From Pirellulales bacterium (GTDB lineage Bacteria > Planctomycetota > Planctomycetia > Pirellulales > JAICIG01), in the NCBI GenBank assembly GCA_035533075.1, contig DATLUO010000055.1, positions 1 through 64,000 of the forward strand: DNA of 64,000 bases, given 5' to 3'. Numbering within the stretch: the stretch's first letter is position 1; each line of letters starts with the position of its first letter. The position numbers were made by a program, and so were the translations under genes. The notes beneath the pieces are model-generated. The model was not told the origin of the DNA. It made no database searches and worked only from the letters and a program-made list of their open reading frames with translations. Positions 43,184 through 53,247 of the stretch are shown one piece after another.

Positions 43184-43273
43184 GCTGCCCAACACGTCAC
43201 GAATGGGCGGCGATGGACCGCCGCTCGCGTGCTCCTCTTAGCCAGGCGATCTGTTCTCAGCAGCCGAACGGGC

Positions 43274-43325
43274 AGTGGAGACGAGCGGGATCGAACCGCC
43301 AACCCCCGGCTTGCAAAGCCGGTGC
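43274..43325 (-). other. attL: 3' fragment of tRNA-Ala (52-bp direct repeat)
   Basis: Identical over 52 bp to 53,173-53,224. It contains the anticodon stem, variable region, T arm and acceptor 3' strand of tRNA-Ala, but not the D arm or 5' acceptor strand. It is the piece of the original tRNA gene displaced by integration. A GTG within it (43,275) opens the first frame of the element. Confidence 0.93.
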
Positions 43326-43637
43326 CCCACCGACACAAGTGGTAATCAGCAACAACTTACGGCGAGCACTTCGCCAGCTTGCACCGCTGCTTGCACCAGA
43401 AAGCCGGAAATCGCTCACGAAACGACCGGCGAAGGGGACGTCGACCAGGCCACAAACGACGCCGAGCCGACCACAGGCGAAGGGGCTGATACGCTCGCCG
43501 TGCTGGCCGCCGCTCTGGTCGGATTGTCGGCCGCCGATCGTGCCAAGCTGGCCGCCATGCTGCTTGCCGGCAACGATTCAACGGGCGACGGCAAGACCTC
43601 GACCGGCAAGCGCGGCACCAGGAACAAGAAAGGGTAG
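43275..43637 (+). CDS. Element ORF opening inside attL; potential integrase tail in the excised form
   Basis: A 120-codon frame whose only early start is a GTG inside attL; the next in-frame start is a GTG at 43,500 (about 45 residues). The first 17 residues are translated from the tRNA repeat. The rest has a helical core (LAVLAAALVGLSAADRAKLA) and a basic tail (KTSTGKRGTRNKKG). In the excised circle this frame would be joined, in phase, to the integrase gene and would form a 104-residue alternative C-terminus. Whether it is expressed on its own in the integrated state is unclear. It is followed after 8 bp by the next element gene. Confidence 0.5.
   Translation: METSGIEPPTPGLQSRCPTDTSGNQQQLTASTSPACTAACTRKPEIAHETTGEGDVDQATNDAEPTTGEGADTLAVLAAALVGLSAADRAKLAAMLLAGNDSTGDGKTSTGKRGTRNKKG
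43377..43397. promoter_or_regulatory. Candidate integrase arm-type sites, left end
   Basis: Two direct copies of GCTTGCACC, 12 bp apart, lie 52 bp inside attL. The 22-bp block GCTTGCACCGCTGCTTGCAC plus CA recurs at the right end (53,002-53,023). Matching repeats at both ends of an integrating element are the usual sign of integrase arm-binding sites. The alternative is a remnant of a second integrase 3' end. Confidence 0.6.
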
Positions 43638-43645
43638 GGCGACGA

Positions 43646-44161
43646 ATGGCAGAAAATGGCGAACCAGGACCGGGGGCCGACGATGACGTGGCGCCCGGCG
43701 AACCAGGACCGGGGGGCGATGACGCGCTGCCACACGGCGAAGTGGGACCGGGGGGCGATGACGCTCTGGTGCTCGCACTGGCGACCGGGGCGACGCTTGA
43801 TGAAGCCGCCGCGCGGGCCGGCTGTTCCGCTCGGACGGTAAGCCGCCGGCTCGCCAACGCTCAATTTGCCCGGCGCGTGTCCGTGCTCCGCGGGCAACTG
43901 TTTTCTGCCGCGACGGGCCGGCTGGTGAACAACGCCGCTCTGGCCGCCGACAAGCTCGTGGCGTTGCTCGACTGCCCACAAGACCACGTGGCCTACGCCG
44001 CCGCCCGGACGATTCTTGAACTCGGCACGAAGCTACGCGAAGCCGGCGAACTGGAACAACGCATCGCCGCCCTTGAAGGCGGGGCACCAGAACAAGACGA
44101 AGGGGAAACCGACGATGAGCATAAAGAGCCGGCTGACGAAGCTGGAAAAGACGCGGCGTGA
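43646..44161 (+). CDS. Small-terminase-like HTH protein with N-terminal tandem repeats
   Basis: A 171-residue protein. The first 43 residues are encoded by three 39-bp tandem repeats (43,658-43,774) that give GEPGPGADDD-type units, so this part is probably disordered. Residues of about 49-70 are a helix-turn-helix (ATLDEAAARAGCSARTVSRR) like that of phage small terminase subunits and transposase-type regulators. Helices including NAALAADKLVALLDCPQDHV follow. The acidic C-terminal tail ends in EPADEAGKDAA. No large terminase gene is present in the element, so DNA packaging by this protein alone is unlikely; a satellite using a helper phage is one possibility. Confidence 0.6.
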   Translation: MAENGEPGPGADDDVAPGEPGPGGDDALPHGEVGPGGDDALVLALATGATLDEAAARAGCSARTVSRRLANAQFARRVSVLRGQLFSAATGRLVNNAALAADKLVALLDCPQDHVAYAAARTILELGTKLREAGELEQRIAALEGGAPEQDEGETDDEHKEPADEAGKDAA

Positions 44162-44531
44162 GAACGACGCCTATGCTGATGACCCCAACCGTCCGCCCGA
44201 CTTCGCCGAATTGTGCGGCTATCCGCGTGGCACGTGTCTATCAACGATCTTTCAGCTTGAAGACGAGCGAATGGCAAGGGAAATCGCCGCCGGCACGTAC
44301 AAACCGCCAGAGCCGCCCGACCCGGATTACATGCCCGAAAACGTCATCGACGTGGAAAGTGAACTGCTGAAAATCCAAGGCAACCGCGACGGCTGGCGAG
44401 CGCGGCAACTTTTTTTGAAACGCGACTTGGCGGAAATGATTCGCCGAGAATGGCCGGACATTGACGCCGAGCCGGCCGCCACCAGTAGCGTGGCGAGCAA
44501 AGCGCACCACGATGAACACTGTGCAGAATGA
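44115..44531 (+). CDS. Small element protein, RLxxLExxR family, member 1
   Basis: A 138-residue charged protein of unknown function. It opens MSIKSRLTKLEKTRREN, a short helix shared with the next two genes, and ends its conserved part with PENVIDVESELLKIQ, also shared. Between them lies a proline-rich stretch (TYKPPEPPDPDYMPE). It overlaps the preceding gene by 47 bp and the following by 4 bp. The three adjacent paralogues look like a duplicated family. No catalytic residues are evident. Confidence 0.65.
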   Translation: MSIKSRLTKLEKTRRENDAYADDPNRPPDFAELCGYPRGTCLSTIFQLEDERMAREIAAGTYKPPEPPDPDYMPENVIDVESELLKIQGNRDGWRARQLFLKRDLAEMIRREWPDIDAEPAATSSVASKAHHDEHCAE

Positions 44532-44752
44532 ACGCTCGAATTCAAAGCCGGCTCGCAAAACTCGAAAGGCATCGTGGCGACCAGGGCAGGCCCGACCGAT
44601 CTTTGACCTTCACCGAAGCGTTTGGTTTGCCGCTCTGTAGGTTGCTCGAAATCTCCGATCGAATTCCGGCATCGCCGCCACCGACCGGGCCGCCGCCCAA
44701 CTTGTGCGACGTCGACGCCTACCTTGCTCAACTCGAAAGGGATGGGGAATGA
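44528..44752 (+). CDS. Small element protein, RLxxLExxR family, member 2
   Basis: A 74-residue protein, the shortest of three tandem relatives. It opens MNARIQSRLAKLERHRG and closes NLCDVDAYLAQLERD, matching the ends of its neighbours, with only a short SPPPTGPPP linker between. It overlaps the preceding and following genes by four bases each (ATGA), so the three are translationally coupled. The function is unknown; small coiled or helical proteins of this sort can be regulators or adaptors. Confidence 0.65.
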   Translation: MNARIQSRLAKLERHRGDQGRPDRSLTFTEAFGLPLCRLLEISDRIPASPPPTGPPPNLCDVDAYLAQLERDGE

Positions 44753-45012
44753 CCGCTCGCACACTGAGGGGCCGGCTCGACCGATTGGAAGCAAGGCGAG
44801 AGAACGATCACACGCCGCCAGATCCGTTCGCGTTTTTCTTGGGACTCGACCGCCCGGTAACGCTGGCCGAATTGCTCGACGCCGCCAGCGGCACCGTGGC
44901 GCCGCCGCACGACCCTACCGAACCATTGCCCAACGTCATTGACCTTGCCGCCGAGCTGGCGAAGCTCGACGCCGAAGCCGGCTACACGCGCAAAGAATCG
45001 CCGTTAGAATGA
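44749..45012 (+). CDS. Small element protein, RLxxLExxR family, member 3
   Basis: An 87-residue protein opening MTARTLRGRLDRLEARREN and closing PNVIDLAAELAKLDAEAG, the same N- and C-terminal signatures as the two genes before it. The middle contains FAFFLGLDRPVTLAELLDAA. It starts within the stop of the previous gene (ATGA). It is the last of the coupled trio and is followed by a spacer with a strong nested hairpin. Confidence 0.65.
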   Translation: MTARTLRGRLDRLEARRENDHTPPDPFAFFLGLDRPVTLAELLDAASGTVAPPHDPTEPLPNVIDLAAELAKLDAEAGYTRKESPLE

Positions 45013-45079
45013 CGGCACCAGGCGACCGTGCGTGAGTAGCTACACCGCGGTCAAAGATCACTTCCGGCTCGACGCCTTC

Positions 45080-45129
45080 TGCCTTTCGTTTCGGTGTCGG
45101 GCCGGGAGTGGCCCGCTTAACGAAAGGCA
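45080..45129 (+). promoter_or_regulatory. Nested hairpin in the leader of the following gene
   Basis: Outer arms TGCCTTTCGTT (45,080-45,090) and AACGAAAGGCA (45,119-45,129) are perfectly complementary over 11 bp. Inside, CGGGCC and GGCCCG (45,098-45,103 and 45,110-45,115) form a second stem. The structure ends three bases before the start codon at 45,133 and could hide the ribosome-binding site (GAAAGG lies in the outer arm). Confidence 0.6.
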
Positions 45130-45132
45130 TCT

Positions 45133-46503
45133 ATGGCAGACGATCATTGGCAAGGCGACCGCGACGCGCCAAAGCTCGACACACTGGCCGCCGTGAAGGT
45201 TTGGTTGGACCATGCCGTTGCGTGGGTGCGCTCGTTAAAAGGGACTCGCAGCGAAACGGCTGCAATGCCGCTCGCCGCGCGTACCATTCGCAACTTCTAT
45301 CGCGCTCTCGACCGCTTAGGCGTTTGTGACCGTCCACCGTGGCCAAGCGACCCGGCCGACGTTGAACAAGCCGAAGCCGCTCTAAGCGACTTGCTCGTAT
45401 GGGTGCGCCGACATTTGCCCAAACCCAGCCCCTACAGCGGTTGCACGCTGTTTGCCGGCGAAGGTATTCGCACCTTGGGAAATCTGCGCACTGCCCTGTT
45501 ATCTGAACAGCAAAGATCGCTGCCGGCTGACATGTTTCAACAATGCTCTGGCGACCAGGAACGTGCATTACAAGCGTTGAAAGCTCACCAGGAACTTACG
45601 GGCGACTTTCGCTCGTTTCCTATCGTGCAACGGGCCGACGCAATTTGTCGGCAGCGCTACGGCCAACAGTTGACGCAAGAATCATTGGACCGCATTCGTT
45701 TGGAATACCATGAAAAGACCGGTGAGCCGTTCGGCGCCGTCAACAACGAGCGGTTGAGAGACGTCCTCGACCTGGTGGAACAGATACCGCTTCGCACCTA
45801 TCCGGTATGCTTTGCTGGGCTACCCGAACTACAACCGCCGTCCGAAACGGACAAAGGACCGCCGGCGACCTCAGTGCCAGCAACCAGCCAAGCGACCGAC
45901 CAGGAACCGACGGCGACGGGGGCCGGCGAACAAGGCGAAGGGACCGGCGAGCAATTCATCTTCGCACGGGACGGGGACGGGTATTTCGTGAAGGGCTTTG
46001 GCGAATCGGGGCACGTCAAGGGCATGGTCGGGTTCAACCATGTCGCCAAGCTGATAGCGCAGCCTGGCACGCCGATCTTGATGACGGAGCTACTGGGCGC
46101 CGGCGATGCCGCGGCCGATCAACGTAGCCGTCAACCGGCGATGGACGCCCAAGCTAAACGGCAAGCAAATGAACGGCTGCAAGAGCTAGAACGGGAAATC
46201 GACGATGCCAAAGCCTGTAATGACGCTGCACGGCAAGAGCGGGCGATGGAAGAAAAAGAGCGGTATGTCGAGCAACTGAAAGCCGCTGCGGGGGTGCTAG
46301 GCAAAGATCGTGACATAAACAGCCAAGTGGACAAACACCGGCCGCGTATTCTAGGCGCCGTCAAGCGTGCTTGTGACGCACTTCGCAAATCGACGCCGCC
46401 AATGATCGAACTGGCCAACCATTTCCAGGCCGGCATTTCCACTGAAGGCGACACCGTCGTTTATCGTGCAGGGGCTTCATTAAGCTGGCGTGACCGCCAG
46501 TAA
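45133..46503 (+). CDS. Hypothetical coiled-coil regulator-like protein
   Basis: A 456-residue soluble protein and the second largest of the element. The N-terminal part is helical (LAAVKVWLDHAVAWVRSLK) and gives no clear family. The C-terminal half begins FIFARDGDGYFVKGFGESGH, a small beta unit, continues with a segment that resembles ones I recall from planctomycete and actinobacterial regulatory proteins, then a coiled coil (RLQELEREIDDAKACNDAAR), and ends with helices including RILGAVKRACDALRK. The GTGEQ-rich region around residue 265 is a linker. It lies after a hairpin-containing leader that may regulate translation. Confidence 0.6.
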   Translation: MADDHWQGDRDAPKLDTLAAVKVWLDHAVAWVRSLKGTRSETAAMPLAARTIRNFYRALDRLGVCDRPPWPSDPADVEQAEAALSDLLVWVRRHLPKPSPYSGCTLFAGEGIRTLGNLRTALLSEQQRSLPADMFQQCSGDQERALQALKAHQELTGDFRSFPIVQRADAICRQRYGQQLTQESLDRIRLEYHEKTGEPFGAVNNERLRDVLDLVEQIPLRTYPVCFAGLPELQPPSETDKGPPATSVPATSQATDQEPTATGAGEQGEGTGEQFIFARDGDGYFVKGFGESGHVKGMVGFNHVAKLIAQPGTPILMTELLGAGDAAADQRSRQPAMDAQAKRQANERLQELEREIDDAKACNDAARQERAMEEKERYVEQLKAAAGVLGKDRDINSQVDKHRPRILGAVKRACDALRKSTPPMIELANHFQAGISTEGDTVVYRAGASLSWRDRQ

Positions 46504-46510
46504 CGAAAAT

Positions 46511-46616
46511 AGTAACGCGCCGCGTTACTCAGTAACGCGATTCGTTACGCCATAGTCTTCAAAGAGCGGTAGGTCACAGTGACCGCCGCCAACTGACACC
46601 ACTTGGAGACTATGGT
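46511..46616 (+). promoter_or_regulatory. Palindrome cluster upstream of AlpA/Xis-like gene
   Basis: Four inverted repeats lie in 105 bp: AGTAACGCG-C-CGCGTTACT (46,511-46,529), GTAACG-5 bp-CGTTAC (46,532-46,548), CCATAGTCT (46,550-46,558) pairing with AGACTATGG (46,607-46,615), and GGTCAC-A-GTGACC (46,572-46,584) inside the latter. The outer arm ends one base before the start codon at 46,617. They could be operators for the encoded HTH protein. Confidence 0.65.
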
Positions 46617-46853
46617 ATGAAATCGGCAACGATTGCACGGGATGCTACGCCCGTGGCCATGCTTGACGTGACGCAAGTAGCGGCACTGCTTGGCTGTAGC
46701 CCGCGACACGTCTACCGCCTTTCTGACGCTGGGCGAATGCCGCGCCCCGTTCGCTTGGGTTCGTTAGTTCGCTGGTCGAAAACTTCTCTCGACCAGTGGA
46801 TTGCCCAAGGCTGCCCGAATTGCCGCACTGCCGGCAAGGGGGCAGGCCAATGA
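46617..46853 (+). CDS. AlpA/excisionase-type HTH protein
   Basis: A 78-residue protein with a MerR-like winged helix-turn-helix: MLDVTQVAALLGCSPRHVYR is the recognition unit, and MPRPVRLGSLVRWSKTSLDQ forms the wing and following helix. This is the AlpA/Xis/helix_turn_helix_17 pattern used by excisionases and prophage activators. It is preceded by a cluster of palindromes and overlaps the next gene by four bases. It is the best candidate for the recombination directionality factor of the element or for its transcriptional switch. Confidence 0.85.
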   Translation: MKSATIARDATPVAMLDVTQVAALLGCSPRHVYRLSDAGRMPRPVRLGSLVRWSKTSLDQWIAQGCPNCRTAGKGAGQ

Positions 46854-47251
46854 ACGACAATTTCGATGTAACGGAAGGCGCACGCCGCAAAGACGACGAG
46901 CTACAACGGCTCGCCAAACTCCGCGCGTTGCATGTTAACCGTGGCAGACGCGCACTACTGACGGCGCTGCTGGCGCACGGGACCGGGACGGCTGATGACG
47001 TGCGGGCCGCGCTCGACTTACCTGCCGCCGTCAACCCGGTTTGCCTTGGGGCAGTGGCGCCGCCGCTGGCCAAGGCCGGAATTATCACGCTGGCGGGCTT
47101 CGCTCAAACGCGCCGCCCGAAAGCGCACGCCCGCCCGCTATCAGTCTGGGCACTGAGCGACCGGGCCGCGGCGGAGCAATGGCTGGCCGATCACCCCGAC
47201 CAGTCTGATGATGATGACCAGGGCGCCGTACAAACGACGCTCTGGGTCTGA
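46850..47251 (+). CDS. Winged-helix-like hypothetical protein
   Basis: A 133-residue protein. RALLTALLAHGTGTADDVRA (about 33-52) and LGAVAPPLAKAGIITLAGFA (about 64-83) fit a winged helix such as those of phage replication or regulatory proteins, with KAHARPLSVWALSD forming the wing. The tail is acidic (HPDQSDDDDQGA). It starts in the stop codon of the AlpA-like gene. No exact family is recognised, and a role in gene control or replication initiation is inferred from the fold. Confidence 0.6.
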   Translation: MNDNFDVTEGARRKDDELQRLAKLRALHVNRGRRALLTALLAHGTGTADDVRAALDLPAAVNPVCLGAVAPPLAKAGIITLAGFAQTRRPKAHARPLSVWALSDRAAAEQWLADHPDQSDDDDQGAVQTTLWV

Positions 47252-47332
47252 CGACGTGCCGAGCGCGACGGGTGACGCCGCCGCGCTCGACTTCTCCTTT
47301 TCTCGACAACCCTTTTCCTCGAAAGGCAAAAC

Positions 47333-47854
47333 ATGCCAAGAAAATCTCTGTCAGACATTCTACAAGGCGATGCACGGGCACGCCTACAGCAAGCATGGGA
47401 TTCGGCCAAACCTGCCGACGAATTCACGCCGTTACCCAAGGGCGAATACGTGTCCATGCTGGAATCGACCGAATCGTTTCAGGCCAAGACGGGAACCGCG
47501 GGATTTAAACTGACGTTCCGTATCACCGAAGGCGAGTATGCCGGCCGACGATGCTGGTACGATGTTTGGCTGACGGAAGCCGCGGCGAGCATGGCGAAAA
47601 CCGATCTCGGCAAACTCGGCATTCATCGCGTCGAACAACTTGACCAGCCAACGCCGCAAGGCATCGTATGCCGCATCAAGGTTGTCGTGCGCGAAAGCGA
47701 TGACGGCGACCAGTACAACCGCGTGAAGTGGTTCGACGTGGACCATATCGAGCCGCCGGCGCCCGACCCGTTTGCGCCGAGCTCCGCCGGCGAGCACCGG
47801 GCCGACGCCGAGCACCAGGACGGCGACGAAAGCGAAGGGGGCAATCCGCAATGA
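47333..47854 (+). CDS. DUF669-family phage protein
   Basis: A 173-residue protein matching DUF669, a family found in phages near replication and recombination genes. The family core is LPKGEYVSMLESTESFQAKT (about 34-53), FRITEGEYAGRRCWYDVWLT (about 61-80) and VVVRESDDGDQYNRVKWF (about 116-133), followed by an acidic tail. In other phages it lies beside RecA-like or single-strand annealing genes and may bind single-stranded DNA. Here it directly precedes the primase gene, overlapping it by four bases, which supports a DNA-replication role. Confidence 0.82.
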   Translation: MPRKSLSDILQGDARARLQQAWDSAKPADEFTPLPKGEYVSMLESTESFQAKTGTAGFKLTFRITEGEYAGRRCWYDVWLTEAAASMAKTDLGKLGIHRVEQLDQPTPQGIVCRIKVVVRESDDGDQYNRVKWFDVDHIEPPAPDPFAPSSAGEHRADAEHQDGDESEGGNPQ

Positions 47855-48822
47855 CGACGCTTCCCTACGGCTTTCGCGTCGTGGGGAGCACGTGGGAAGT
47901 GCGGCGGCTGGTCGATGCCGCCACCGCACTTTCCGCGCATTGCTCTTGCGACCCCAAGGCCGAACTACACCGCGAATGCTACTTGTCGGCGTTTCAGTAC
48001 GGCGATGATTTTCGTCGGCACTTGGAAGTGACCGGCTCGACGGCGGAGTTTACCGGCGAATGCTGGGCACCGTGGCTGTGGTTCGACGTTGATCGTGCCG
48101 ACTTGACGGTTGCCTTGACCGACGCCCGCCGGCTCGCCGTGACGATCGACGAGCGCTATCGCTTGGGCGACGGCGACTTGCTCGCCTTCTATTCGGGCAG
48201 CAAGGGGTTTCATATCGGGCTGCCGACTTCGCTCTGGTTGCCGAAGCCGGCCGCGACGTTCCATAAGATCGCACGGCGGTTTGCCGAACGGCTCGCCGAG
48301 CTGGCCGGCGTGACGATCGACACCGGCGTGTACGACAAGGTGCGTTTGTTCCGCGCACCAAACTCTCGCCACCCCAAGACGGGTTTTCATAAGCGCCGGC
48401 TTTCGCTCGACGAACTGCTTGGGCTTTCGCTCGACGGCATTCAGGCGTTGGCCGCCGAGCCGTCGCCGTTCGATCTGCCAGAGCCGGCCGCGACGAACGA
48501 CCAGGCCGCTGCGGATTGGCTCGACGCCCAAGACCATGTAACGACGCAAGGCGAAGTGAACGCGGCAAGGCGAGCCGAACGAAATGGCTCGCCGACATTG
48601 AATCGCTCGACGCTCGAAATCATTTGCGACGGCGATGCGCTCGCCACCGGCGACCGACACCGAATGCTGTTCAGTGCAGCCGCAAACCTTGGCGAGTTTG
48701 GTTGCCCCGACGAACTGGCGCTGGCCTTGTTGCTCGACGCGGGGCTTGATTCGGGGCTGCCGCCGAAAGACGTGCGGCGGCAAATCGAATGCGGGTTGAC
48801 GCACGGAAGGGGGACGCGATGA
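47851..48822 (+). CDS. Archaeo-eukaryotic-type DNA primase
   Basis: A 323-residue primase. The metal-binding motif is WLWFDVDRAD (FDVD at 78-81), followed by FYSGSKGFHIGLP (about 113-125), whose SGSKGFH is the nucleotide-binding S-x-H motif, and YDKVRLFRAPNSRHPKTG with the third conserved region. Together they mark an AEP (PrimPol/small-subunit) fold. C-terminal helices with DRHRMLFSAAANLGEFG resemble the PriCT-type extension. It would make primers for replication of the element. It overlaps the helicase gene by four bases, and the pair forms a primase-helicase unit. Confidence 0.85.
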   Translation: MTTLPYGFRVVGSTWEVRRLVDAATALSAHCSCDPKAELHRECYLSAFQYGDDFRRHLEVTGSTAEFTGECWAPWLWFDVDRADLTVALTDARRLAVTIDERYRLGDGDLLAFYSGSKGFHIGLPTSLWLPKPAATFHKIARRFAERLAELAGVTIDTGVYDKVRLFRAPNSRHPKTGFHKRRLSLDELLGLSLDGIQALAAEPSPFDLPEPAATNDQAAADWLDAQDHVTTQGEVNAARRAERNGSPTLNRSTLEIICDGDALATGDRHRMLFSAAANLGEFGCPDELALALLLDAGLDSGLPPKDVRRQIECGLTHGRGTR

Positions 48823-49757
48823 CCGCGACGTTCCAAACCGCCGGTGACGTGTTCGACGGCTGGCGCGATGACGTGCTCACCGGCTCGCCGCCCGTGCTCT
48901 ATCCGATCGGCGCCGGCGACCTGGCACGCATTGAAACCGGGCCGGGGCTGGTGACGTTGATAGGCGGGGCACCGGGAGCGGGCAAGAGCGCATTCGTTAT
49001 GCAGGCCGTGACCGACGCCTTGCGGTTGACGCCTTCGCTTCGCGCTCTGGTTTGCTCTATCGAAATGCCGCCGCGTGTTTTGCTCGACCGCCAGCTTGCA
49101 CGGCTAAGCGGCATCGACCTTACCGCAATTCGCTACCGACGCTTTGACGCTTCGCACGCCGATCGGCTCGACCAGGCGATGCACACGTTGGAAGCCGTAG
49201 GCGAGCGGTTGGCATTTGTACGGCCGCCGTTCGACTTGGAAAACGTGGCCGCCAGTGCCGACGCATTCCATGCCGACTTGATCGTGCTCGACTACATCCA
49301 ACGCATCCCGCCGCCGGGAACGCACGGCGACCGCCGCGGGTCCGTTGACGCCAGCATGAATTACTTGCGGCAGTTTGCCGACGCGGGGGTGGCCGTTATC
49401 GTCGTGGCCGCCGTGGCACGGGCAAAAGACCATCAAGGCCGTTCGTCCTACGATGGCGACGGGTTGAACCTGGCATCGTTCCGCGAATCGAGCGAATTGG
49501 AATTCGGGGCGGACGATGCTTTCATTCTGGCGCCCGACGGCAAGCACGATGACCAGGTTGTGCTCCGCCACTTGAAGGCACGCCACACGGAACCGAAAGA
49601 CGTGGTGCTGCGGTTCGACCGCTCGCACCAGTCTTTTACGCCCGTGACCGCCGGCGAAGTCTGGACGCCCGAAAAAGGCCGGCTGCAAACGGCGTTGGCT
49701 TCGCTCTGGAATCGCACCGACGCGGCCGACGATGACCAGGGGGGCGACGATGAATGA
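48819..49757 (+). CDS. DnaB-like RecA-fold replicative helicase/ATPase
   Basis: A 312-residue P-loop ATPase of the DnaB/KaiC/RecA group. Walker A is GGAPGAGKSAF (49-59). Next comes LVCSIEMPPRVLLDRQLARL, a DnaB hallmark, then Walker B LIVLDYIQRI, and VVAAVARAKDHQG near the DnaB H3/H4 region, with VLRHLKARHTEPKDVVLRF as the final strand pair containing a likely arginine finger. The N-terminal DnaB domain is absent, as in many satellite and plasmid helicases. It follows the primase in an ATGA overlap. Confidence 0.85.
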   Translation: MTATFQTAGDVFDGWRDDVLTGSPPVLYPIGAGDLARIETGPGLVTLIGGAPGAGKSAFVMQAVTDALRLTPSLRALVCSIEMPPRVLLDRQLARLSGIDLTAIRYRRFDASHADRLDQAMHTLEAVGERLAFVRPPFDLENVAASADAFHADLIVLDYIQRIPPPGTHGDRRGSVDASMNYLRQFADAGVAVIVVAAVARAKDHQGRSSYDGDGLNLASFRESSELEFGADDAFILAPDGKHDDQVVLRHLKARHTEPKDVVLRFDRSHQSFTPVTAGEVWTPEKGRLQTALASLWNRTDAADDDQGGDDE

Positions 49758-50166
49758 GCCGCGAATACTACCCGGTTGCTCGACGCTGCCACCAATGAAG
49801 CCGGCGACCAACGGCAAGGCCGGCTCGATGACCGGCGACCAGAATGGCAGGGACAAGAAAACAGCGAAGCGAAAGACGGGCGACCGCTTCGCCATTCTCA
49901 ATGCCTTCATCGACTTCACGATGGGCGACCTCGATCGTGCTGAAATGGCTGTTTGGTTCGCCTTGTACCGCGACACCAAACCGGACGGGCTGGCCCGAAC
50001 GTCGCAAGCCGATCTTGCTCGCCGAGCCGGCACGACCGACCGCACGGTACGGCGAGCTATCGCCAGTTTGGAGCGACGGCGTTTGCTGAAAATCGTACAT
50101 CGGGGCGGTTTGCAAAAAGGGGCATCGACCTACCGGATTTTGCCATTGATGAAGCCGCCGCAATAG
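49750..50166 (+). CDS. Winged-helix replication/regulatory protein
   Basis: A 138-residue protein. A basic N-terminal region (NGRDKKTAKRKTGDRF) precedes a winged helix (about 55-125): LDRAEMAVWFALYRDTKPDG, ARTSQADLARRAGTTDRTVR and LLKIVHRGGLQKGASTYRIL as the wing. The fold is that of GntR/MarR-like or Rep-type DNA-binding proteins. It overlaps the helicase gene and is followed at once by a block of palindromes, which it may bind as repressor or as origin-binding protein. Confidence 0.65.
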   Translation: MNEPRILPGCSTLPPMKPATNGKAGSMTGDQNGRDKKTAKRKTGDRFAILNAFIDFTMGDLDRAEMAVWFALYRDTKPDGLARTSQADLARRAGTTDRTVRRAIASLERRRLLKIVHRGGLQKGASTYRILPLMKPPQ

Positions 50167-50278
50167 GACACCCATGTCCGGTTGTAATAGGACATTTGGC
50201 GTCATTTACTGCGGACACCCATGTCCTATATCCCATAAGGGACCATAAGAGCGTCCCCTTAATGGTCGCTACGCGACC
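50166..50278 (+). promoter_or_regulatory. Palindrome array: candidate operator or origin
   Basis: Two identical copies of GGACACCCATGTCC (50,166-50,179 and 50,213-50,226), each with arms GGACA/TGTCC, and a half-site GGACATTTGG between them. These are followed by a CATAAG-GGAC-CATAAG direct repeat and a GGTCGC-TAC-GCGACC hairpin (50,264-50,278). The array sits directly after a winged-helix gene and the primase-helicase pair. Confidence 0.6.
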
Positions 50279-50366
50279 GGGGCCGCTGAAACAGAAAATC
50301 AACGCGCCGCCGACGCTGGTGTCCGCCGGCTGGTGCTTTTATGACCGACACCACGAAAGGGTTTGC

Positions 50367-50738
50367 ATGACTGAGAAGAAAACCTTGATCGAACAAGCCG
50401 AAGCGTTGTGGGCCAAGTGGTATGGCAACGGGGAGGAAGCAGAATGGACGTGGCAGGCCCGCATTCAAGACATTCTTGAGCGGAATGTCATCGACGCCGA
50501 GCATATTCGCGTGCTGCTCACCGCTGCCGTCGAAACCGCGAATGCGGACCCCGACACCAAAGAGCATTGGATGGTCGACGAGGATTACGCTTCGGACTGT
50601 ATGGATGCGCTCGCCAGTGCGGAATGGAAGGCGTTCACGGACAAGCACCCGTCCCTGATGTTCGATCTTTTTCTGCTTGCATCGCTGGCGGACAAAGCCG
50701 TAATCGCTGGGCAGTGCGCCGGCGCGGCCGGGGAGTAA
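50367..50738 (+). CDS. Hypothetical element protein
   Basis: A 123-residue acidic, mainly helical protein: TLIEQAEALWAKWYGNGEEA, RIQDILERNVIDAEHIRVLL and FDLFLLASLADKAVIAGQC. There is no catalytic motif, signal or membrane segment, and I do not recognise a family. It follows a 200-bp palindrome-containing spacer, so it may start a new transcript. The next gene follows after 5 bp. Confidence 0.6.
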   Translation: MTEKKTLIEQAEALWAKWYGNGEEAEWTWQARIQDILERNVIDAEHIRVLLTAAVETANADPDTKEHWMVDEDYASDCMDALASAEWKAFTDKHPSLMFDLFLLASLADKAVIAGQCAGAAGE

Positions 50739-50743
50739 TCAAC

Positions 50744-51247
50744 ATGCCCACCGACGCCGCCTTGCTGGCCCAACTGCAAACGCTCTGGCAGGCCGCTACG
50801 CCGCCGATCGTGCCGCCGGCCGTCTGTAGCGACCGACCGCCGGCAAATCCGCCACACGTGCCGCATTTGCCGCCCGTAGACGAGCAAGACGAAGTGCTCG
50901 ACGTGGGCGACCAGGCCGCCCGCGTTTGCTTGTGGCCGGACGAACCGACCGCCGCCGATCTAGGGCCGTTCGCCATGCTCGACGATACCGACCGCGATTA
51001 TTTGCTAGGCCGGCATCGCTACCCGGAACCGTGCGGATTCTGTGAGGGCCGTTATCGCCACAACCCGCAATGCGTGGCCTTGTGCCCTGAGTGGCAGATT
51101 GCCATGCCCTTTGGCAAGCATAAGGGTAAGCCGGTTGCCAGTCTCGACCACGATTATCTGGCATGGCTGCTGAAATGCGGGATGGAACTGAACGCCGAGC
51201 TACGCCGCGAAATCGAGCGGGTTTTGGACATCCCGAATGACACTTGA
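50744..51247 (+). CDS. Zinc-ribbon protein with GKHKG (DUF3820-like) domain
   Basis: A 167-residue protein. After a proline-rich N-terminus comes a Cys-rich stretch (EPCGFCEGRYRHNPQCVALC, about 104-123) that could bind zinc. The C-terminus (IAMPFGKHKGKPVASLDHDY and LAWLLK) matches DUF3820, a small domain often fused to 3'-5' exonucleases or found in phage DNA-handling proteins. The nuclease domain itself is absent. A role in DNA handling during element replication is a cautious inference from these motifs. Confidence 0.68.
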   Translation: MPTDAALLAQLQTLWQAATPPIVPPAVCSDRPPANPPHVPHLPPVDEQDEVLDVGDQAARVCLWPDEPTAADLGPFAMLDDTDRDYLLGRHRYPEPCGFCEGRYRHNPQCVALCPEWQIAMPFGKHKGKPVASLDHDYLAWLLKCGMELNAELRREIERVLDIPNDT

Positions 51248-51277
51248 CAATAATCACGCAACGCCGATAATAGCATC

Positions 51278-51523
51278 ATGGCGAAACAACGCACCGGAGC
51301 AATAACCGACGCCGAGCCGATCACAACGGCCGTGCGGCGGGCGATTCAGGAAAGCGGCATGACCCGCTACCGCATTCACAAGGCGACCGGCATTGACCAG
51401 GCCGCCTTGACGCGGTTCATGCACGGAACGACCGGGCTGTCTACGGCAACGCTCGACAAACTGGCGCCAGTCTTGGGGCTGCAATTGATCGTGAAACCGC
51501 AATCCCAGCGAAAAGCGAAGTGA
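51278..51523 (+). CDS. XRE-type HTH regulator
   Basis: An 81-residue protein with a Cro/C1-type helix-turn-helix: RRAIQESGMTRYRIHKATGI, DQAALTRFMHGTTGLSTATL and KLAPVLGLQLIV. The fit to XRE regulators is good and the length is minimal. It lies directly upstream of the integrase (3-bp gap), so it may control integrase expression or the integrate/excise decision. A basic tail (KPQSQRKAK) ends the protein. Confidence 0.82.
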   Translation: MAKQRTGAITDAEPITTAVRRAIQESGMTRYRIHKATGIDQAALTRFMHGTTGLSTATLDKLAPVLGLQLIVKPQSQRKAK

Positions 51524-51526
51524 CCT

Positions 51527-53236
51527 ATGGGCACCGTTTACCGCAAGACATTTACTAAACCGCTGCCGGCTGGCGCAGAAATCATCGTGCGCAAAGGCGA
51601 GCGGTTGGCACGTTGGAAGGATAGCAAAGGCAAGGCCCGCATGGCGCCGGTTGCCGGCGACAAGGCCGCCGAGCCGAGCCGTATCAGTGTGACCGCCGGC
51701 ACCTACACGGCGAAGTACCGCGACGGCAACGGGCTTGTGGTGGAGGTCTCGACCGGCTGCCGCGACCAGGACGCCGCCCGCAAAGTGCTGGGCGAATTGG
51801 AGAGGCGGGCCGAACTGGTCAAGGCCGGCGTTGTGACCGCCGCCGAAAACGCCGTGGCCGATCACCAGGCAACGCCGCTGGTCAAGCACTTTGACGCCTA
51901 TGTCGGCTACCTGGTGGTGCAAGGTGTCAGCAAGCGGCATCCCCAAGACGTGCGACGCCAGCTTGATCGACTTGCCGGCGAATGCTTGTTTGCCAAGCTG
52001 GCCGATCTTGGCCGCGACGCGCTGGAAAGGTGGCTCGTTGCGCAGGCTCAAGCCGGCATGGGCGCCCGAACGCGAAACACGTACCGGGCTGCCGCCGTGG
52101 CTTTCGGCAACTGGTGCGTCGATTCCCGCCGGCTTGTGGCAAACCCGTTTGCCGGCGTACCGACCGCCGATGAAAAGGCCGACTGCCGGCGCAAGCGACG
52201 ATCGCTAACAGAAGCCGAGTTAGTGCGTTTGCTCGACGTGGCCCGCCGGCGACCGCTCGTTGATGCGATGATGATTCACCGCGGGAAGCGTAAGGGCCAG
52301 CTTGCCGCCAGAATCAGCGACGGCGCCCGCCAACGGCTCGAGTGGCTTGGCCGGGAACGGGCCCTGATCTACAAGACGCTGGTGCTCACCGGGCTACGCC
52401 GCGGCGAACTGGCCAGCTTGACGATCGGCCAGCTTGACCTCGACGGGCCGTTGCCGTCGATCGTGCTCGACGCGGCCGACGAGAAGAACCGGGCCGGCTC
52501 GACGTTGCCCCTCAGAAGCGACCTTGCCGCCGACTTGGCCTTGTGGGTCAAGGAACTGGAACAACGCCATAGCGGCGATTCTGGCGCTTCTGATGGGCCG
52601 TTGTGTCTGCCGATGACTGGCGTACCGCGTTGCGGCAAGCTGCCGGCCGACACCATGCTGTTCACCGTGCCGGAAAAGCTGGTCAAGATTCTCGACCGCG
52701 ACTTGCGAATGGCCGGCATTGCCAAGCGCGATGAGCGTGGCAGAACCGTAGACGTTCACGCCATGCGGCATACGTTCGGCACGTTGCTGTCAAAGGGCGG
52801 GGTTGCCCCTCGCACGGCGCAGGCCGCGATGCGTCATTCGACGATCGGCTTGACCATGAACACCTACACCGACCCGAAGTTGCTCGACATGGCCGGCGCG
52901 CTCGACGCTCTGCCGGCATTGCCCCTCGACGGAATGCCCGCCGATCGGCAAGAGCAACGGGCGACGGGGACCGATGACCTTCGTGTTTCGGGCTTGCACC
53001 CGCTTGCACCGCTGCTTGCACCAAAATCTGGCCAACGTGGTGCAAGCGGGGCATTCGCTGTCAAAATGGCAGCCGATGACGGCGACGACGCCGGGCCGGC
53101 GACTGACGCCGTAAACCCTTGGAATGTCAACGGAAACAACCCGCTGACATTTGCTGTCAACGGGTTGATGAAAGTGGAGACGAGCGGGATCGAACCGCCA
53201 ACCCCCGGCTTGCAAAGCCGGTGCTCTCCCAATTGA
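51527..53236 (+). CDS. Tyrosine-type site-specific integrase
   Basis: A 569-residue tyrosine recombinase that inserts the element into tRNA-Ala. Residues of about 110-205 are the core-binding domain (PLVKHFDAYVGYLVVQGVSK). The catalytic residues are Arg291 in TGLRRGELASL, His411/Arg414 in HAMRHTFGTLL, His437 in AAMRHSTIGLT and Tyr447 in MNTYTDP. The C-terminal 110 residues after the catalytic tyrosine are a variable tail. The last 20 residues are translated from the attR/tRNA sequence (TSGIEPPTPGLQSRC), and the stop at 53,234-53,236 lies within the tRNA gene on the opposite strand. In the excised circle the same frame would run on for 104 different residues. Confidence 0.93.
   Translation: MGTVYRKTFTKPLPAGAEIIVRKGERLARWKDSKGKARMAPVAGDKAAEPSRISVTAGTYTAKYRDGNGLVVEVSTGCRDQDAARKVLGELERRAELVKAGVVTAAENAVADHQATPLVKHFDAYVGYLVVQGVSKRHPQDVRRQLDRLAGECLFAKLADLGRDALERWLVAQAQAGMGARTRNTYRAAAVAFGNWCVDSRRLVANPFAGVPTADEKADCRRKRRSLTEAELVRLLDVARRRPLVDAMMIHRGKRKGQLAARISDGARQRLEWLGRERALIYKTLVLTGLRRGELASLTIGQLDLDGPLPSIVLDAADEKNRAGSTLPLRSDLAADLALWVKELEQRHSGDSGASDGPLCLPMTGVPRCGKLPADTMLFTVPEKLVKILDRDLRMAGIAKRDERGRTVDVHAMRHTFGTLLSKGGVAPRTAQAAMRHSTIGLTMNTYTDPKLLDMAGALDALPALPLDGMPADRQEQRATGTDDLRVSGLHPLAPLLAPKSGQRGASGAFAVKMAADDGDDAGPATDAVNPWNVNGNNPLTFAVNGLMKVETSGIEPPTPGLQSRCSPN
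52992..53047. promoter_or_regulatory. Candidate integrase arm-type sites, right end
   Basis: Three direct copies of GCTTGCACC (52,992-53,000, 53,002-53,010, 53,014-53,022) and one inverted copy GGTGCAAGC (53,039-53,047) lie inside the 3' part of the integrase gene. The second and third copies keep the same 12-bp spacing as the pair at the left end (43,377-43,397). Confidence 0.6.
53173..53224 (-). other. attR: 52-bp direct repeat within tRNA-Ala
   Basis: Identical to the left repeat at 43,274-43,325. It overlaps the 3' part of the intact tRNA-Ala gene, which the element restores on insertion. It is the right boundary of the element and also encodes the last residues of the integrase. Confidence 0.93.
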
Positions 53237-53247
53237 GCTACGTCCCC
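53175..53247 (-). tRNA. tRNA-Ala (anticodon TGC)
   Basis: A 73-base tRNA on the minus strand. The 5' acceptor strand GGGGACG pairs with CGTCTCC, the D arm contains AGCTCAATTGGGAGAGC, the anticodon loop is TTTGCAA with anticodon TGC, and the T loop is GGTTCGATCC. The discriminator is A; CCA is not encoded. It is the integration target of the neighbouring element and is intact. It lies 7 bp from tRNA-Ile, a tandem often found within rRNA operons but here on its own. Confidence 0.95.

Follow-up and report, generated by a model that had tools for sequence, protein, structure and literature searches.

In Myxococcus phage Mx8, as in Mx9, the phage attachment site (attP) lies within the integrase gene (int), and the gene acquires a different 3' end when the phage integrates; the altered enzyme is active but changed (PMC6070905). 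The archaeal 'suicidal' integrases of the SSV type likewise present the recombination site inside the integrase gene, and a recent review called self-disrupting integrases exclusively archaeal (PMC8371274). In mycobacteriophage BPs, attP falls in a coding sequence and integration shortens the product C-terminally, thereby switching it (PMC4557955). The attP-in-int layout is thus already known from Mx8/Mx9 and from SSV-type integrases. Here we describe it in a 9.9-kb element with its own replication module, inserted in a tRNA-Ala gene of a Pirellulales bacterium (assembly GCA_035533075.1) and contained in positions 1 to 64,000 of contig DATLUO010000055.1, a stretch of 64,000 nucleotides referred to below as the window. 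What is notable in this case is the spread of the layout and the number of target changes. As read from the sequence, int is probably complete (669 amino acids) only in the excised circle, its C-terminus being exchanged upon integration.

Attachment site within the integrase gene

The element was delimited by a direct repeat that was perfect over 52 bp and whose match stopped at both flanks. The left copy (attL, 43274-43325) was a 3' fragment of tRNA-Ala, and the right copy (core of attR, 53173-53224), identical to it, formed the 3' part of an intact tRNA-Ala(tgc) gene located on the minus strand (53174-53247) and restored by the element. With direct repeats, a restored tRNA gene and an integrase at one end, it is an integrative element of the tyrosine-recombinase kind located in a tRNA gene. 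The original prediction had already reported the perfect repeat, the intact tRNA with its 3' fragment and the location of all genes on one strand, and these points were confirmed. It had also placed the integrase beside the tRNA gene; the adjacency was correct, but the integrase gene actually ran into the tRNA gene, with an overlap of 63 bp, and the attachment site within int, which is the unusual part of the element, had been overlooked.

The int open reading frame (ORF; 51527-53236, plus strand; Phage_integrase 2.5e-12) encoded in its integrated form a tyrosine integrase of 569 amino acids, whose last residues, VETSGIEPPTPGLQSRCSPN, were read antisense through tRNA-Ala and which ended in VETSGIEPPTPGLQSRC-SPN. 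The catalytic residues (R291, K320, H411-R414, H437, and Y447; alignment A1) were all located upstream of the core in attR. When the two ends of the element were joined at the repeat, as in an excised circle, the int frame stayed open past the core and the product lengthened from 569 to 669 amino acids. The approximately 100 codons added belong to a C-terminal tail left at attL (43326-43637, plus strand), in frame with int in the circle, and contain a pair of arm-like repeats as well as a conserved helical motif at the C-terminus, ADTLAVLAAALVGLSAADRAKLAAMLL (43476-43574, plus strand; profile A3 of 19 tails), in which two short helices were predicted by eye.

This organization resembled that of Mx8 in that the attachment core lies inside the int reading frame and the C-terminus changes with integration, the latter deduced here from sequence only (669 to 569 amino acids, and the equivalent in 19 out of 19 elements). 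In addition, Mx8 Int contains, about 110 residues from its end, a peptide resembling antisense tRNA, STGLEPVLLGSF. However, Mx8 is a tailed phage, whereas here a whole class of elements presented the layout across many tRNA genes; the two integrases were distantly related (BLASTP E 0.02, hhalign 70%), and the motif was not seen by eye in the Mx8 tail. Since the relationship was not close, the element was not placed in the Mx8 integrase group in spite of the similar layout. Neither is the enzyme an SSV-type suicidal integrase: archaeal integration cuts off the catalytic domain from the N-terminal portion, whereas here every catalytic residue from R291 to Y447 lies before the core and they stay together, the tail alone being exchanged. 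Phage_integr_3 (PF16795) was not found in the integrase, PF00589 being the sole domain above the cut-off. With BPs, the element shares an attP within a gene and a C-terminal truncation upon integration, but the BPs gene encodes a repressor and its tail is an ssrA-like degradation tag, whereas the gene concerned here encodes an integrase and its tails, inspected by eye, end otherwise.

Recurrence of the layout and conservation of the tail

The primase of the element had relatives in 40 of 298 class genomes, and the own genome contained another copy, in a second element located in tRNA-Ala(cgc) whose tail was 85% identical to that of the window element. Around the primase relatives, the order AlpA-DUF669-primase-helicase-winged helix-integrase-convergent tRNA recurred. 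In this primase-based survey, in which loci were picked without selection on the integrase, 22 of 27 loci had the ORF taken as the integrase ending past the 3' end of the tRNA. When species genomes were scanned with an integrase profile, 80 loci were obtained, almost every one titled as Planctomycetota, among them L162 (tRNA-Gly) of the cultured Aeoliella straminimaris ICT_H6.2; 65 of the 66 complete ORFs with a convergent tRNA crossed into it. The crossing loci involved 19 isoacceptors and all three phases (31, 24, and 10 loci), and the stop of the integrated-state int fell inside the tRNA in 48 of these 65. A quick tree of 92 integrases needed at least 49 isoacceptor changes and at least 31 phase changes. 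For comparison, 626 of the 3919 islands in the Islander database are listed as overlapping any RefSeq coding sequence. No relatives of the integrase were found in plasmids, and the search in phages yielded distant satellite integrases only, the best being those of Streptococcus satellites over 30% of the protein. The layout is phylum-wide in Planctomycetota, a recurrence that points to a built-in switch more than to an accident.

The overlap might instead be a by-product, the arm sites being needed near int, the antisense strand of tRNA genes being often free of stops, the tail being a functionless read-through and integration having no effect that matters. Antisense tRNA can indeed be open in all three frames, and the overlap was missing in some members of the family. 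Nevertheless, openness was frame-specific: over the stretch between the catalytic part and the tRNA (n = 66), the int frame was open in 65 loci, as compared to 13 for the +1 frame and 1 for the +2 frame. Both ends could be located for 19 crossing elements, and past the core the frame was restored in register in all 19, although the phases change. The ratio of nonsynonymous to synonymous substitutions (dN/dS) between the two copies of the own genome was 0.24 in the catalytic part and 0.30 over the last 68 codons of the tail, where the motif is conserved, whereas protein-level constraint was absent (dN/dS around 1.1) from the linker upstream of the core and from the initial 35 codons of the tail, as expected of a by-product. 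In these two stretches dS was itself low (0.18 and 0.10 vs. 0.51-0.62), and they contained TTGCACC repeats spaced by 12 bp, whose distances to the core matched between its two sides. The pattern fits selection that would act on the protein in the motif and on the DNA in the arm stretches, and we regard a mere by-product as unlikely.

The P'-arm-like site in the tail (43374-43401, plus strand) consisted of two TTGCACC separated by 12 bp, encoded as ACTAACT, and formed a 28-bp repeat 93% identical to 52999-53026. The latter lies among the P-arm-like sites inside int (52994-53045, plus strand), recognized from repeat density and low dS, with three TTGCACC and one GGTGCAA, partly encoded as LAPLLAP. 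The density of arm repeats was 2.9 per kb vs. 0.13 per kb elsewhere, and close variants were visible in other elements. A terminator-like hairpin also fell within the coding part of int, immediately beyond the 3' end of the restored tRNA (53137-53167, minus strand; 13-bp stem followed by TTT; z -5.0). Over 92 loci the median z was -4.1, with z < -2 in 83% as compared to 5% in control stretches of int, and a stricter hairpin-plus-T rule was satisfied in 69 of the 92 loci vs. 24% of shuffles; the stems differed in sequence from locus to locus. The restored tRNA thus probably receives its terminator, a predicted hairpin, from the element.

The restored tails of the 19 elements (alignment A3) were 65-120 residues long and ended in a similar motif, and related tails were found at different phases relative to the tRNA. 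In the own genome, profile A3 matched only the window motif and the second element at E < 0.1. With leave-family-out profiles, for which the element and its close relatives were excluded, the int frame scored best in 18 of 19 cases; several of these scores were weak, and the motif is accordingly well supported in some lineages and suggested in others. Comparison of the tail profile with the PDB gave nothing below E 0.1. It could be argued that the tail at attL is a separate small gene merely abutting the attachment site, given that in the window a GTG stands at 43275 and the tail has an independent open frame, 120 codons long. This start, however, would fall within the tRNA fragment, and the frame of the tail matched that of int in 19 of 19 elements, with a chance of 1/3 each and across different tRNA phases. 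A separate gene is therefore very improbable.

Several points weigh against the proposal of an exchanged C-terminus. The case is built on sequence, and the role of the tail is argued by analogy to Mx8. Many of the tails are related, so that the 19 in-register restorations do not represent 19 independent trials; the dN/dS values come from one pair, the two copies of the own genome; and the integrase survey ranked its matches by a query that contained the tail. The own genome displayed no assembled circle junction, the junction query matching its two halves and, at 73%, the attL of the second element. Finally, some members of the family (L063, L065, and L066 in tRNA-Gln, L073, and L174) do not cross into the tRNA, and hence the overlap is not essential to all members. 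In the three tRNA-Gln loci, int stops just short of the core and has no tail motif, which may be a secondary loss or an older state.

Two further observations concern the attachment sites of relatives. In seven loci (L039, L053, L069, L099, L144, L155, and L173) the identity between attL and attR ran 50-245 bp past the tRNA on the int side, as expected of an older related element at the same tRNA, and these appear to be tandem insertion scars. Locus L161 (88-2097) was considered as an excised circle on account of an uninterrupted int-core-tail frame; it was not circular, had a stop inside the tail motif and was followed by kinase-like host sequence, thus indicating a decayed relic.

Gene content, host site and type of element

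All genes were arranged on the plus strand, in the order AlpA-DUF669-primase-helicase-winged helix-XRE-integrase. The replication module comprised a DUF669, single-strand-binding-like protein (47333-47854; PF05037 2e-7, PHROG single-strand-binding protein 1.6e-8), an AEP-type primase (47851-48822; PHROG primase 1e-19) in which the AEP motifs FDVD and GSKGFHIG were visible although Pfam AEP matches were weak, a DnaB/RecA-fold helicase (48789-49757; DnaB_C 7e-17), and a winged-helix protein resembling replication initiator O (49732-50166; PHROG O-like 4e-6). A conserved protein of 135 amino acids belonging to this module (46844-47251), with no assigned function, was present in 10 of 21 delimited elements. 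Upstream of it, an AlpA/excisionase-like helix-turn-helix (HTH) protein (46617-46853; HTH_17 1.4e-11, Phage_AlpA, PHROG excisionase 2e-10) is a candidate directionality factor, and an XRE-type regulator (51278-51523; HTH_26 9e-8) was found immediately upstream of int. Between the winged-helix and XRE genes (50367-51247) there were two small ORFs, one ending at 50738, with no family, and the other (around 50744-51247) similar to QSregVF_b and the C-terminus of exonuclease X. At the left end, an HTH protein (43646-44161) starting 8 bp past the tail stop had its best PHROG match in a sigma factor (1e-4), its similarity to the terminase small subunit being weak (0.02). It was followed by three successive small ORFs (44115-44531, 44528-44752, and 44749-45012) with similar N-termini of the pattern RLxKLExxR, which look like tandem paralogues of no known family, and by a 456-amino-acid protein (45133-46503), also of no known family, with relatives in L043 (33%) and L114.

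Pfam and PHROG scans of the element ORFs revealed no structural or conjugation genes, relaxase included, and neither a relaxase nor conjugation genes are therefore available to define an integrative and conjugative (ICE) or mobilizable (IME) element. The original prediction of an integrative element in tRNA-Ala with its own replication module and without structural or conjugation genes was thus supported, its further reading as a self-replicating satellite or phage-plasmid remnant being a possibility only. Its gene families held for the AEP primase, the DnaB-like helicase, DUF669, the AlpA-like, XRE and winged-helix proteins, and less so for the small-terminase-like HTH protein, whose similarity is weak in the window. 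It had named absence of the arrangement from any other genome, together with a lack of excision junctions, as evidence against itself; the arrangement recurred in many planctomycete genomes, so this objection does not apply.

The order tRNA-Ala/tRNA-Ile/thioredoxin gene was kept in the same-order relatives L200, L201, L203, and L204, in which the tRNA had no adjacent integrase or primase match, and in L202, with a related integrase beside the tRNA. These are other species, and hence the comparison shows synteny and not a strain-level empty site. Immediately to the left of attL, a repeat of around 73 bp (43200-43272) had about a dozen more copies in the own genome, 74-88% identical; the six copies checked were not near a tRNA gene.

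With an integrase, an AlpA-like regulator, a primase and no structural genes, the element has the gene set of phage satellites of the P4 type or of the phage-inducible chromosomal islands (PICIs). It could be a helper-dependent satellite of this kind in which the integrase layout is incidental, a reading that agrees with ours on the layout itself and concerns the transfer between cells. Size is also in keeping with it, the elements being mostly of 7-10 kb (7-11 kb for most of the 21 delimited), with a primase-helicase pair. Terminase-small-like genes adjoined attL in some relatives (L152 and L069; phrog_4044 5e-21 for the L152 group), which is a hint of satellites, and the own genome contains at another place a terminase-large-like gene (L209, G000:C67:18187-19938) that possibly belongs to a resident phage or helper. 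On the other hand, the terminase-small similarity was weak in the window element, the element is not known to have a helper or a cos/pac site or to be inducible, and the primase and helicase had no relatives in viral contigs. The sequence shared with PICI/P4-type satellites is limited to the integrase. Elements as large as 15-32 kb were found, the largest being of 32 kb, with restriction-modification and other cargo but with no structural genes seen. On balance, we consider the satellite reading possible but somewhat doubtful.

Cargo of the delimited elements included methyltransferase and type I restriction genes; PADLOC returned methyltransferase matches only, in L057. In L048, L069, and L075 (17-32 kb), type I restriction genes, a Fic-like ORF, a Y-family-polymerase-like ORF and a repetitive ORF of 2145 amino acids were named by eye. 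Replication modules also varied among the delimited elements (AEP plus helicase, Prim-Pol, DnaB, and DUF3987). The gene types match those of phages and ICEs, as would be the case for a deleted prophage or ICE that retained only its replication and integration genes; yet the same compact order, conserved under divergence, is found in numerous genera, the elements being flanked on either side by intact repeats, and no structural or conjugation genes were seen in the recurring elements. We give this origin hardly any credence.

Proposed consequences of integration

According to the exchange of the C-terminus that we propose, the tyrosine integrase would insert the element into the 3' half of tRNA-Ala. 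In the excised circle int would be whole, with 669 amino acids and ending in the conserved helical motif. Integration would cut int at the core, so that the catalytic part stays by attR with a new stop in or just past the tRNA, whereas the last 100 codons or so would remain at attL, 9.9 kb away from the catalytic part; excision would rejoin both. The C-terminus of the integrase would therefore be swapped at each integration, like that of phage Mx8. The layout, its conservation and the restoration in frame are established by the sequence, from which we infer excision in vivo and its functional effect. By analogy, the full-length and truncated enzymes most likely differ in activity, stability or direction; the truncated integrase retains the catalytic domain, and so it need not be inactive. 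Stable integration may be favoured for as long as AlpA-type factors do not trigger excision. In the circular form, the left-end genes would moreover come to lie downstream of the int frame, and since the next gene starts 8 bp past the tail stop, int transcription may reach these genes only after excision.

More tentatively, and as a proposal that we hold at nearly even, a phylum-wide family of bacterial elements may use its own int to switch with the state of integration, the full-length enzyme, motif included, being confined to the circle and the truncated one to the inserted state, a layout kept through dozens of changes of tRNA target by re-adjusting the frame across each new tRNA.

For annotation, C-termini such as GIEPPTPGLQSRC resemble spurious antisense-tRNA peptides but are here part of the integrase, and the tail stranded at the opposite end of the element will usually be missed or labelled hypothetical. 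Motif, arm sites, core and tRNA terminator are packed into a single reading frame, and the many target changes provide a natural series of how an integrase shifts its site and yet keeps its coding frame. The self-interrupting integrase layout is the rule in a large family of bacterial elements, contrary to the statement that it is exclusively archaeal (PMC8371274), and the family offers ground for asking whether a reversible exchange of the C-terminus controls integration vs. excision.

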